42,389 bases of DNA from Bacteroidota bacterium. GTDB lineage: Bacteria; Bacteroidota; Bacteroidia; J057; JAJTIE01. Of this stretch, positions 3,008-39,433 are shown piece by piece. A program made the position numbers and the translations under genes. The stretch covers positions 1 through 42,389 of the forward strand of contig JAJTIE010000006.1 in assembly GCA_021300195.1 (NCBI GenBank), in the 5' to 3' direction. How positions within the stretch are numbered: the stretch's first letter is position 1; each line of letters begins with the position of its first letter. The notes below the pieces were generated by a model that worked only from the letters and a program-made list of their open reading frames with translations, did no database searches and was not told the DNA's origin.

Positions 3008-4637
<1,630 letters not shown>

Positions 4638-34697: not shown

Positions 34698-35531
34698 ATG
34701 CGCAGGCATTACCATTTGTACCTAATTCTGGCGGCCCTGGCGGTAGTGGGCTGCAAACGTCATCCGGACTATGTGCTGATCCGGGGAAGCGAAACGATAC
34801 TGCCCGTGGCCTGGAAACTGGCCGACCGGTTTACCGAACTGGACACCATGCCAGACCTGTCTGCCATAGGTGGGGGCAGCGGAAGTGGCATAGCCGCACT
34901 GATCTCGGACAGTGCAGACATTGCCATGAGCAGCCGGCCAATACAGGAGCACGAGCGATTGAAGATCCGGGAAAAAGGATACAATCTAAAGGAATGTGTG
35001 GTGGGACTGGACGCACTTGCCCTGGTTGTAAACAAGAACAATCCCATCGACAGCATAAGTATTGACGCTGTGAAGTCAATCTTCACGGGCAAGATCTACA
35101 GCTGGCACGACCTGGGGGGCGAAGAAGCAGAGATAATAGCCTACAAGCGGCCCGAAAGCAGTGGAACCCAATCTTTCTTTAGCGAGGTGGTGCTAGAAAA
35201 TGCACCCCTTGCCGATATGGAAACCCTGGAGCAAAACGCACAGATTGTAGACCATGTAAGCGCAAACCCCCATGCCATAGGCTACATTGGCATAGCCTAT
35301 GTAGACACGGCCCTGGTAAAGCCCCTGAGCATCTACAGTGGCAAGCTGCCCGCCGTGGCCCCCAGCATCGAACGAATCTCTGCCGGAGACTATCCCTGGA
35401 CACGAAAACTGTACTTCTATTATGCAGCCGAGAACGAGGACCGGGTGGGGAAAGTGATTCAATACGTCGAGTCTGAAGCAGGCAGAAAATTGGTAGAAAA
35501 AGTGGGCTACCTCGCCGTACAGAAACAGTAA
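34698..35531 (+). CDS. PstS-like substrate-binding lipoprotein
   Basis: A 277-residue periplasmic lipoprotein of the phosphate-binding (PBP-like type 2) family. The signal sequence ends in the lipobox AVVGC, with C19 as the acylated residue. RGSETILPVAWKLADRF, GGGSGSGIAALISDSADIAMSSRP and KRPESSGTQSFF match the phosphate-binding loops of PstS-type proteins. No Pst permease, ATPase or PhoU gene follows. Instead it is followed after 41 bp by a histidine kinase and two receiver proteins, so the protein probably feeds ligand information to the kinase rather than to a transporter. Ligand (phosphate or another oxyanion) is inferred from the family only. Confidence 0.87.
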   Translation: MRRHYHLYLILAALAVVGCKRHPDYVLIRGSETILPVAWKLADRFTELDTMPDLSAIGGGSGSGIAALISDSADIAMSSRPIQEHERLKIREKGYNLKECVVGLDALALVVNKNNPIDSISIDAVKSIFTGKIYSWHDLGGEEAEIIAYKRPESSGTQSFFSEVVLENAPLADMETLEQNAQIVDHVSANPHAIGYIGIAYVDTALVKPLSIYSGKLPAVAPSIERISAGDYPWTRKLYFYYAAENEDRVGKVIQYVESEAGRKLVEKVGYLAVQKQ

Positions 35532-35572
35532 AATACAATAAAAATTACGGACCCTACCATACGGATCATGCC

Positions 35573-37339
35573 ATGAAGATTACAAATCCATCCAGGCGCC
35601 TTACCATCAATTACCTGCTCTCCCTGCTCATTATCCTGGCGCTGGTGGGCACCAGTCAGTACCTGGTTCGTTCTTCGCTGGACAAACAGGTTAGCGACGG
35701 CGCACTGATAAACGCGGGTGCCAAGCAGGTATACCTGAGCCAGCAGCTGGTAAAGCAGGTACTCGTGCTACAGCAAACGAAGACAGAAAAACAGCAGGCT
35801 GACCTTGTGGAGACAATGGAGGCCACCCGTGCACGGTGGAACCAAACCCATCATCAACTATCCGAAGGCCTGGCAACCCAAAAGCTGGCAGGCAGCAACG
35901 AGGGTGAGATCATCCGAGGCATGTACAGCGCCATCGAGTATGCCCAGAGCCAGATCAACGCCTCGGTGGAACAGATCGTGTATGCGCACAAGAATGGGAA
36001 GCTGGATACGGTGCTAGCTGTGGCTGGCCGAACCCTGCTGGATAATGAAGACCGATATGCCACCGGTATGGACCGAATCGTTTACCAATACGCACTGGAG
36101 GCCAAGGAAAAGGTAAAGACCACCGAACAGACCCAGATCTTGCTCTTTATCGCTATCGTGATTACGCTGGTATTGATCGCCCTGCTGGTCTTTCGCCCGG
36201 CTGTGCGGCGCATACAGGAGGACGTGAAAATACTGAACCAAACCTACCAGAACCTGGAAAACCAGAAGGCCAAACTGGAGCAGGCATACACCGAGCTAAA
36301 AAGCACGCAGGAGCAGCTGGTGCAAAGCGAGAAAATGGCAGCACTGGGCCAGCTGATCGCCGGCATTGCGCACGAAATAAACACGCCCCTTGGCGCAATT
36401 CATGCCAGCAATGGCACCCTGGCTAAAAGTGTAGACGGCCTGGTGCATGACCTGCCCGAGATAGGGCGCGCCATGACCCCCGTGCAGCAGGCACAGTTTC
36501 ATACACTTATAGAGCTAAGCAAGAGTGCAAATAATGACCTGAGCAGCCGGGAAGAGCGCCAGATAAAGAAAGATCTTCAGCAAAAACTGGAGGATCTGGA
36601 AGTAAAAAATGCACCCGTACTGGCAAGAGAACTGGTGAAGATAGGCCTGCATGCAGATAACCTGGCAGAGGTGCAAGATGCATTTGCATCGCCCGAATCT
36701 GAGCGGATGATACATACGGCCGGCACCGTGGGCAAGATGCGTATGCACATGCAATACATTGACCTGGCAGTGTCAAAAATGCAGAAGATCGTCTTTGCCC
36801 TGAAGACCTATAACCACCGCCAGATCCATGACGAGCCCATACTGGCCGACCTGAACAAAAACATGGAAGCCGTGCTGGTAATCTACCACAACCAGCTAAA
36901 GTATGGCATAGAGCTGGAGAAAAACCTACAGCCAGACCTGCCCGAAACCTTCTGCTGGCCGGATGAGCTGAACCAAGTGTGGACAAACCTGATACACAAC
37001 AGCATACAGGCCATGGACGGTAAGGGCACCATGCGCATTGGCACCCAGCTTTCGGCAGATGGGCAGTGGATAGAAGTAGAGGTCACAGACTTTGGCCCTG
37101 GAATCCCACCCGAGGTGCAAGCACGCATGTGGGAGGCATTCTATACCACCAAGCCCGCCGGCGAGGGCAGTGGGATGGGCCTGGATATTGTGCGAAAAAT
37201 CATAACCAAGCACGGCGGAGAGATACAGGTAGATAGCCATCCTGGAAAAACCACCTTCAGGGTACGAATACCTCACCGGCCTACGTTAGCAAGTACATAC
37301 GCGCAACAGCAAGAACACTCCTTTGTCGAAATATCATGA
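35573..37339 (+). CDS. Membrane sensor histidine kinase
   Basis: A 588-residue kinase with helix 1 at about 14-32, a 150-residue all-helical periplasmic domain resembling the PilJ/four-helix type, helix 2 at about 188-207 and a coiled coil (220-255). HisKA carries the phospho-acceptor H267 in GIAHEINTPLG. The ATPase domain has the N box (NQVWTNLIHNSIQAM), G1 DFGPGIP, F box FYTTKP and G2 GSGMGLD. The distance from H267 to the N box is about 205 residues, roughly 100 more than usual; the extra polar helical stretch (about 290-390) is unexplained. It shares ATGA with the response regulator. Confidence 0.93.
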   Translation: MKITNPSRRLTINYLLSLLIILALVGTSQYLVRSSLDKQVSDGALINAGAKQVYLSQQLVKQVLVLQQTKTEKQQADLVETMEATRARWNQTHHQLSEGLATQKLAGSNEGEIIRGMYSAIEYAQSQINASVEQIVYAHKNGKLDTVLAVAGRTLLDNEDRYATGMDRIVYQYALEAKEKVKTTEQTQILLFIAIVITLVLIALLVFRPAVRRIQEDVKILNQTYQNLENQKAKLEQAYTELKSTQEQLVQSEKMAALGQLIAGIAHEINTPLGAIHASNGTLAKSVDGLVHDLPEIGRAMTPVQQAQFHTLIELSKSANNDLSSREERQIKKDLQQKLEDLEVKNAPVLARELVKIGLHADNLAEVQDAFASPESERMIHTAGTVGKMRMHMQYIDLAVSKMQKIVFALKTYNHRQIHDEPILADLNKNMEAVLVIYHNQLKYGIELEKNLQPDLPETFCWPDELNQVWTNLIHNSIQAMDGKGTMRIGTQLSADGQWIEVEVTDFGPGIPPEVQARMWEAFYTTKPAGEGSGMGLDIVRKIITKHGGEIQVDSHPGKTTFRVRIPHRPTLASTYAQQQEHSFVEIS

Positions 37340-37743
37340 TTAAACGAGCCATTCTGTGTGTAGATGACGAGAAAATGGTGCTAGACAACCTCCTGGACCA
37401 GCTCGAAAACACCTTCGGGGATACATTTGAGTACGAGGTGGCAGAAAGTGCCGAAGAAGCCTGGGAAGTGATAGAGGATCTTGTTTCGGATGGATTTGAG
37501 ATGGTCCTCGTCATTAGCGACTGGCTGATGCCACGGGTAAAGGGCGATACTTTTCTGATTGAGCTACACGCAAAGTATCCGCAGACAGTAACCATTATGC
37601 TCACCGGCCAGGCCGAACAGGACGCGGTACTTAATGCGAAGAACAACGCTAATCTGTTTGCCTATATACAAAAACCCTGGAACGAGGAGGACCTGATGGA
37701 ACGGGTAAATATAGCCTTTTCACAACTTGGTATTACTGTATAG
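37336..37743 (+). CDS. Receiver-only response regulator
   Basis: A 135-residue single receiver domain: D10/D11, phospho-acceptor D62 in ISDWLMPRVKGD, T90 and K113 in IQKPW. No output domain follows. The first 115 residues align without gaps with the receiver of the next gene (D62, T90 and K113 at the same numbers; shared ILCVDDEKM, LDNL, MLTGQA/LLTGQA, KPW), showing a local duplication. It overlaps the kinase gene by 4 bp. It may act as a phosphate sink or a branch competing with the phosphatase-linked receiver. Confidence 0.93.
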   Translation: MIKRAILCVDDEKMVLDNLLDQLENTFGDTFEYEVAESAEEAWEVIEDLVSDGFEMVLVISDWLMPRVKGDTFLIELHAKYPQTVTIMLTGQAEQDAVLNAKNNANLFAYIQKPWNEEDLMERVNIAFSQLGITV

Positions 37744-37777
37744 GCATACCGAATCACATGCTTATTTATAAGTTTAA

Positions 37778-39433
37778 ATGAAAAAATGCACCATACTGTG
37801 TGTAGACGACGAAAAAATGATCCTGGATAATCTGGAGGATCAGATACGGCAGCGCATGGGCGAAGAGTTTGATATAGAAATTGCTGAGAGTGGAGCTGAG
37901 GCATTAGAAATAATGGAGGAATTGGAGGCCGATGGGCGGCCACTAGCTGCTATTATTTCCGACCAGATGATGCCCGTAATGAAAGGAGATGAGTTCCTGA
38001 TAGAGGCGCACCGCAGACTGCCCGATACACCAAAAATCCTGCTGACAGGTCAGGCAGACCTGGAGGCAATACAGAACGCAATAAACAACTCAAAGCTATA
38101 CCGATACATAAGCAAGCCCTGGGAGGCCCATGACCTGATGATGACGGTAGAGGAGGCTGCGCGCAGCTACCTGCAGCATATACAACTGCTGGAGTACAAC
38201 GAGCTACTCCGGGCACTCAACCGCGCAAGCCAGGAGATATCCGGAGAAATGAACCTGAACATACTGGTAGAAAAACTGATAACTAGCACCATAAAAAATA
38301 CCGGTGCGCAGAAGGGCTACCTGGTGATGAAGCGAGACGGCGAACTGATGATAGAGGCCGTAAGCAGTATACTGGAAGTAGAGGCGAGCAGACTAAAGCA
38401 AGAGCTTGTTATAAATCGGAGCTTCGTAACACAGAATATCCTGGAAAAAATCAACATCACACTCAACTCTCTAGACTCGAACTACCACAGAATGGCCAGC
38501 CCGATATCCAACAAGGGGAAGCATATTGGCTATGTGTATGTAGAGTCGAGCGAGCAGGAGAAATACTTCGACAGACACCAGCGCGAGGTACTGGAGATGC
38601 TGGCATCTCAGGCAGCTATTTCGCTGGAAAATGCAAGCCTATACCGAAATCTGGAATTAAAGAATCAGGATATTCTGGATAGCATTGCCTATGCACGCCG
38701 GATACAGATGGCTATTATGCCCCAGATTTCCCTGCTGCAAGATGCCTGGCCCAGGTCATTTGTACAGTATAAGCCGAAGGCCATTGTAAGCGGAGATTTC
38801 TACTGGTTTTCTAAAAAAGAAGACCATCTTCTTGTAGCAGCAGTAGACTGCACGGGGCATGGCGTTCCGGGTGCTTTTATGAGTGTGATGGGCAGCAATT
38901 TTCTGAACCAGATTGTGAATGATTATTCCATCTATAATCCAGACACCATTCTGCGTATTCTTGACAGCAAGGTGAGAGACGGCCTTAATCAATATGAAGT
39001 AAAAAACGGATACAATCAGGATGGAATGGATATTGCGCTTATCTCAATCCATCTGCCCAGCAGAAAAGTGCAGTATAGTGGTGCCCGACGCCCTCTTTAT
39101 TTACTCAGAGACGAAGAAATCGTTGAGTTTTCGGGCACAAAAGCCAGCATAGGAGAAAGACGGGAGGAAAAAGAGGAATCGGTAGCATTTCCGGCACATG
39201 AATTCAAGGCCAAACCTAAAGATCGCGTCTATCTGTTTTCAGACGGCTTTGTAGACCAGTTTGGTGGAGTCAAAGGCAAAAAATTTGGACGTAAACGTTT
39301 CCAGAAACTACTACTGGAAACGGGCGGCAACAGTATAGATGCCCAACTGCACCTGATAGACCAGGCAAGCATAGACTGGCAGGGCGAGCAGGAGCAGACA
39401 GACGATATTCTGCTGATTGGTTTGGAATTTTAG
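37778..39433 (+). CDS. Response regulator with GAF-like and SpoIIE-type PP2C phosphatase domains
   Basis: A 551-residue cytoplasmic protein. Residues 1-125 are a receiver (D62, T90, K113), about 155-290 a GAF-like domain, 285-320 a short coiled linker, and 325-551 a PP2C/SpoIIE-type Ser/Thr phosphatase. Phosphatase metal ligands are D340 in VSGDFYWF, D357 in VDCTGHGVPGAFM, D489 in LFSDGF and the D542/D543 pair in TDDILLIG. Proteins of this build dephosphorylate STAS anti-sigma antagonists in partner-switching pathways, and phosphorylation of the receiver would set the activity. Gap to the previous gene is 34 bp. Confidence 0.94.
   Translation: MKKCTILCVDDEKMILDNLEDQIRQRMGEEFDIEIAESGAEALEIMEELEADGRPLAAIISDQMMPVMKGDEFLIEAHRRLPDTPKILLTGQADLEAIQNAINNSKLYRYISKPWEAHDLMMTVEEAARSYLQHIQLLEYNELLRALNRASQEISGEMNLNILVEKLITSTIKNTGAQKGYLVMKRDGELMIEAVSSILEVEASRLKQELVINRSFVTQNILEKINITLNSLDSNYHRMASPISNKGKHIGYVYVESSEQEKYFDRHQREVLEMLASQAAISLENASLYRNLELKNQDILDSIAYARRIQMAIMPQISLLQDAWPRSFVQYKPKAIVSGDFYWFSKKEDHLLVAAVDCTGHGVPGAFMSVMGSNFLNQIVNDYSIYNPDTILRILDSKVRDGLNQYEVKNGYNQDGMDIALISIHLPSRKVQYSGARRPLYLLRDEEIVEFSGTKASIGERREEKEESVAFPAHEFKAKPKDRVYLFSDGFVDQFGGVKGKKFGRKRFQKLLLETGGNSIDAQLHLIDQASIDWQGEQEQTDDILLIGLEF

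Follow-up and report, generated by a model that had tools for sequence, protein, structure and literature searches.

The use of a separate binding protein to feed a receptor is an established principle, with CtpL-PstS, AioX, TorT and XylFII as examples. In the CtpL-PstS system of Pseudomonas aeruginosa, phosphate-loaded PstS provides the input to a helical-bundle membrane receptor (PMC4926252); this receptor is a chemoreceptor, and PstS works for the transporter as well. In AioX-AioS-AioR and the ArxX/ArrX systems (PMC5908839), the gene for a periplasmic oxyanion-binding first component lies beside the kinase gene, with a transcriptional regulator as output, while in TorT-TorS and XylFII-LytS (PMC6321045) the kinase sensor is a helical bundle on which the binding protein docks, again with transcriptional outputs. 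CuaD and GltB are reported as further binding proteins that act as receptor input (PMC10384115, PMC7927077).

The locus presented here lies in a window of 42,389 nucleotides, the whole stretch of DNA that was analysed, which is contig C6 of a 2.67-Mb, 71-contig Bacteroidota genome (G000). It comprises four open reading frames on the same strand at 34698-39433 (+):

34698 to 35531, plus strand: P0001, PstS-like (PBP_like_2) lipoprotein, 277 aa, lipobox VVGC19, proposed separate sensor subunit
35573 to 37339, plus strand: membrane histidine kinase, 588 aa
37336 to 37743, plus strand: P0003, receiver-only response regulator, 135 aa, D62 (Response_reg 1.3e-16)
37778 to 39433, plus strand: P0004, REC-GAF-SpoIIE (PP2C) phosphatase, 551 aa, D62

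A sequence-only reading had described four consecutive same-strand genes with a 4-bp overlap between kinase and receiver, and this layout was reproduced exactly in both reading frames and domains. The intergenic spacers are 41, -4 and 34 bp: the binding-protein gene adjoins the kinase gene on the same strand across 41 bp, and the kinase stop and receiver start overlap by 4 bp. Upstream, tgt ends 178 bp from the cluster; downstream lies a convergent gene. Profile searches matched PBP_like_2 in the lipoprotein (2.9e-39), HATPase_c (2.7e-24) with a weak HisKA in the kinase, and Response_reg, GAF and SpoIIE in the regulators; each of the four is a domain protein of full length, well beyond what chance open reading frames would give. 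A scan of the cluster for promoters and terminators gave signal no better than chance; the cluster is most likely a single operon for signalling. Third-position G+C is 0.53-0.64 in the four cluster genes (34698-39433) and 0.72-0.80 in the genes just upstream.

Compared with CtpL-PstS, the window has a PstS paralogue set apart from the pst operon and, as the putative receptor, a kinase with receiver/PP2C output. It resembles the AioX, ArxX and ArrX systems in the kinase-adjacent gene for a predicted periplasmic oxyanion-binding component, but the binding protein belongs to another subfamily and the output is not a transcriptional regulator. Docking on a helical bundle, as in TorT-TorS and XylFII-LytS, is proposed for the window too, whereas the types of binding protein and the ligands differ.

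The genome contains three PBP_like_2 genes. A complete pst operon on contig C18 carries its own PstS at the head, with PstC, PstA, a PstB-like ATPase and a further gene that we take for PhoU. The PstS of that operon is a protein distinct from P0001; the earlier description of P0001 as being without any transporter holds for its cluster, in which no permease or ATPase gene was found, but not for the genome. The third PBP_like_2 protein, a lipoprotein of 337 aa (L037:1399-2412, G000:C5), has no transporter beside it in the stretch examined.

P0001 is 43-45% identical to the C18 PstS. It scores 135.9 bits against PF12849 (PBP_like_2), above the cut-off, and 198.2 against TIGR02136 (the PstS subfamily), just below the curated cut-off of 206.6. 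A tree of 75 homologues places it, with support 98/97, as the sister of the clade formed by its own order's pst-operon PstS proteins; its branch measures 1.73, compared with 0.34-0.88 for these proteins, and long branches of this kind make its exact placement less certain. Across 63 pst-operon PstS proteins, 73 alignment columns are near-invariant, of which P0001 retains 57, including GS30-31, S61, D74, S79-R80, D105, R151 and S155-G156-T157, which presumably contact phosphate or lie near it. The following motif includes several of these residues:

35148 to 35168, plus strand: oxyanion-site motif R151-P-E-S-S155-G156-T157 (residues 151-157) of P0001, near-invariant PstS columns

Judged by tree and alignment, P0001 is paralogous to the order's PstS and evolves fast. 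The conservation of the presumed ligand-site residues suggests that binding of phosphate or a similar oxyanion has probably survived its departure from the transporter. It may instead feed the kinase with a different ligand, for example arsenate, phosphonate, another oxyanion or an organic phosphate; AioX and its orthologues use one shared pocket for differing oxyanions (PMC5908839). The small shortfall against TIGR02136 and the altered residues flanking the site (E152P, K162S, P237K) point in the same direction. Every near-invariant residue presumed to contact phosphate is nonetheless retained, and a different ligand seems to us rather improbable, with phosphate or a close analogue the preferred reading.

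The features of the kinase are as follows:

35678 to 36130, plus strand: periplasmic sensor (about residues 36-186), a probable PilJ/NarQ-type four-helix bundle flanked by two transmembrane helices (sequence and model)
35708 to 35743, plus strand: degenerate N-box INAGAKQVYLSQ, residues 46-57, with V53 instead of the nitrate-binding Arg (alignment)
36371 to 36373, plus strand: codon of the phospho-acceptor H267, invariant in the kinase alignment
36962 to 37279, plus strand: HATPase_c domain, residues 464-569 (profile match)

Absent from the earlier reading was the identity of the sensor, which by its sequence appears to be a degenerate nitrate-type (PilJ) domain. All 25 members of the alignment have a PilJ match, although the window sensor itself scores 25.5 bits against PF13675 (cut-off 26.6), and its sequence relatives include McpN (6gcv, E 1.3e-4) and NarQ. 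Since the full-length AlphaFold model of the kinase is poor (pTM 0.38), the sensor was modelled alone, giving a four-helix bundle (pLDDT 93) with NarQ as the top Foldseek match. The LytS sensor that binds XylFII (5xsj_L) aligns to this model with Z 15.3, but values this high are common for helical bundles, including designed ones, and are weak on their own, so that the family assignment rests on the sequence matches. Of 395 genomes of the phylum, 44 have sensor homologues, many of them adjoining what look like nirBD and nitrate transporter genes. The nitrate N-box has the consensus [IVL]-[ND]-x-A-G-x-Q-R-M-L-[ST]-Q (PMC6381276), of which G-x-x-R reads A-K-Q-V at residues 50-53 of the window kinase; the Arg is retained in 24 of 24 homologues examined, leaving V53 peculiar to the window kinase among the 25 sequences. 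The kinase seems to share the PilJ-type sensor family of NarQ, NarX and McpN but differs from them in the lost N-box Arg and in a gene position outside any nitrate locus. With V53 in place of the Arg, direct nitrate sensing is unlikely, although loss of Arg in one protein could mean another direct ligand and not a protein partner.

In the scheme that we propose, P0001, paralogous to the order's PstS and no longer tied to the pst transporter, would first bind periplasmic phosphate or a similar oxyanion. Ligand-binding P0001 would dock on the four-helix kinase sensor whose nitrate site is lost; H267 would then donate its phosphate to D62 in both receiver proteins, the solo one and REC-GAF-PP2C, and the PP2C domain would dephosphorylate a STAS-type antagonist and so set free a partner-switching target. 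In this scheme we infer which ligand is bound, the docking, the direction in which the signal runs, the phosphotransfer and the STAS output. Alternatively, the kinase bundle may sense a small ligand directly, as NarQ/McpN-type sensors bind their own ligand (PMC6381276), with P0001 a spare PstS that merely lies upstream, serving as a phosphate scavenger or as a second PstS for the C18 pst operon, which could accept one. We regard this as unlikely: among the 25 sequences compared, the nitrate Arg is lost in the window kinase alone, and P0001 is strongly diverged yet keeps its presumed ligand site.

The search for the same gene order in other genomes bears on both possibilities. Conservation of the four-gene order with PstS was not seen in any relative examined. 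The PstS-kinase order was absent at the strong PstS matches of the order (a P0001 search of 60 relatives), in 60 further PstS-homologue loci read in context (matches from 395 genomes of the class), 51 of which lie in pst operons, and in 80 kinase loci from many phyla and 48 nearer loci. Found in one genome only, the linkage could be recent chance, which would suit a spare PstS. Against a spare PstS stands G001, the one further genome sampled from the window genome's family, with another binding lipoprotein in the same position before the same kind of triad.

This G001 locus (L330:6341-12422) encodes a UrtA-type lipoprotein, a histidine kinase, a receiver and a REC-SpoIIE protein in the same four-gene order. 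Its lipoprotein matches Peripla_BP_5 (PF13433, 1.5e-158) and is unrelated to P0001. No BPD_transp_2 permease was found in G001 (95% complete) or in G000, while 12 of 14 control genomes have one, so the binding protein seems to be without a permease of its class to serve. The likeness to the window extends over gene order, kinase family, separate receivers, SpoIIE output and a genome without a matching permease; the differences are the Peripla_BP_5 protein, a weak dCache-type sensor with HAMP and a different kinase subclade. It is this shared layout around an unrelated binding lipoprotein that most strongly supports P0001 as a kinase subunit, together with the loss of the ligand Arg from the kinase, and by this analogy we consider it fairly likely that P0001 is the input subunit of the adjacent kinase. 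The sequence-only reading had presented a binding protein used as a dedicated sensor subunit as the novel part. The role is favoured by analogy, but the novelty claim gives way, as PstS as receptor input is already known (PMC4926252, PMC5908839). What is new is the combination of PstS paralogue, kinase, receiver and PP2C, as well as a single kinase-receiver platform that has repeatedly taken on different sensor proteins.

Further cases of such recruitment come from other members of the kinase family. In Caenispirillum bisanense (L116:5786-9547), a UrtA-type Peripla_BP_5 gene overlaps a family kinase gene, followed by a receiver, and in a Myxococcales MAG (L137:4700-10165) an OppA-type SBP_bac_5 lipoprotein directly precedes a family kinase and then a REC-GGDEF-like protein. 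In G029 and G040, two genomes of the class (loci L347:634-3834 and L348:2087-5775), an H-NOX gene lies directly before a family kinase and two receivers, with SpoIIE output in one of them. The latter pair resemble H-NOX-associated kinases (HnoK networks; Shewanella HnoK, PMC6335343) in the separate upstream H-NOX gene followed by receivers; unlike the window, they have a cytoplasmic heme sensor in place of a periplasmic binding protein, and their kinases lie on long branches in another group of the tree. A 184-aa gene after Vibrio kinases was considered as H-NOX and rejected, its start resembling a signal peptide. Since the loci with other binding proteins or H-NOX fall in separate groups of the kinase tree, recruitment of sensor proteins was probably independent. 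These analogous loci were drawn from about 135 kinase genes, a sample and not an exhaustive census; the L116 and L137 binding proteins were missed by greedy ORF picking in GC-rich DNA and recovered by a six-frame look, so similar cases elsewhere may have been missed.

The core beside which these sensor genes lie is widespread. H267 lies within an AHEIN-P motif invariant in the kinase alignment, both receivers contain D10-D11, D62, T90 and K113, and the kinase core family extends over Bacteroidota, Cyanobacteriota, Pseudomonadota, Thermodesulfobacteriota and others. Among 87 family kinases in 80 loci from many phyla, a solo receiver is next in 42 and a further receiver-effector is present in 21. 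The 47 kinases in 48 loci of the order and class have a receiver next in 20 cases, with seven full triads, SpoIIE being present in six of the seven. Both window receiver proteins find their best matches in G003/G009 (67-69% identity for P0003, and 48-49% over the full length for P0004); in the L085 triad, the solo receiver is 69% identical to P0003, and the protein matching P0004 is 49% identical to it over its full length. The G003/G009 triad kinase is about 1100 aa long with an N-terminal region unlike that of the window kinase, and in the kinase tree the core of the window kinase has as its sister a G002 kinase of this long (about 1100 aa) type. From these matches, it looks as if an old triad had changed its sensor and gained a binding protein to give the window system.

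Lipoprotein-like proteins of 292-311 aa occur directly before orthologous kinase triads at L085:9468-10346 and L086:3421-4356 and could be separate sensors; their assignment to known binding proteins was rejected, and the L085 protein has no Pfam match. The window genome itself has another kinase-receiver-REC-SpoIIE triad (L079:2741-12247, G000:C58), which follows a 1547-aa protein with repeated PAS-like blocks.

We suggest tentatively, at somewhat less than even confidence, that a widespread platform of kinase, solo receiver and receiver/effector, with PP2C as the effector in this order, has independently recruited PstS-, UrtA- and OppA-type binding proteins and H-NOX as sensors, and that in the window a sensor swap has led to an Arg-less nitrate-type bundle that docks a PstS paralogue, linking periplasmic phosphate to PP2C/STAS signalling. 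If so, repeated adoption of ready-made binding proteins by a generic kinase-receiver-phosphatase module would be a route to new sensors, and SpoIIE-type phosphatase signalling would have phosphate (or an oxyanion) as an input, in a genome that encodes 16 phosphatases of this type. It would also suggest that orphan binding lipoproteins beside kinases are more likely to be sensors than parts of transport systems.

The final steps of the scheme concern P0004, which matches PF07228 (SpoIIE, 5e-20) and has the PP2C metal-binding Asp motifs SGDF, DCTGHGVPGA, SDG and TDD; a match to a SiaA-like model (5.8e-57) lies below that model's cut-off. SpoIIE-type PP2C domains commonly act on STAS antagonists, as in RsbU, SpoIIE and SiaA, making a PP2C-to-STAS output plausible. 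Neither a STAS antagonist nor an RsbW-like gene was found in the operon, and both are present elsewhere in the genome, one of them in the window:

3008 to 3367, plus strand: lone STAS-domain antagonist (PF01740) with NSTG motif, candidate P0004 substrate, 31 kb from the cluster

The module may work up to the phosphatase, with P0004 acting on a phosphoprotein other than a STAS protein and without partner switching. The genome counts fit such an output (16 SpoIIE matches as opposed to two STAS matches and one stand-alone, clear RsbW-like protein, none of them operon-linked), while the known substrates of this phosphatase type, the sub-cut-off SiaA-like match and the STAS protein with a phosphorylatable NSTG motif in the same window argue for STAS. 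A non-STAS output is accordingly a serious minority possibility, and the full chain from P0001 through to STAS, though the scheme that we favour, is about as probable and thus less likely than not. The STAS gene at 3008-3367 sits between a Fur-like gene and purA.
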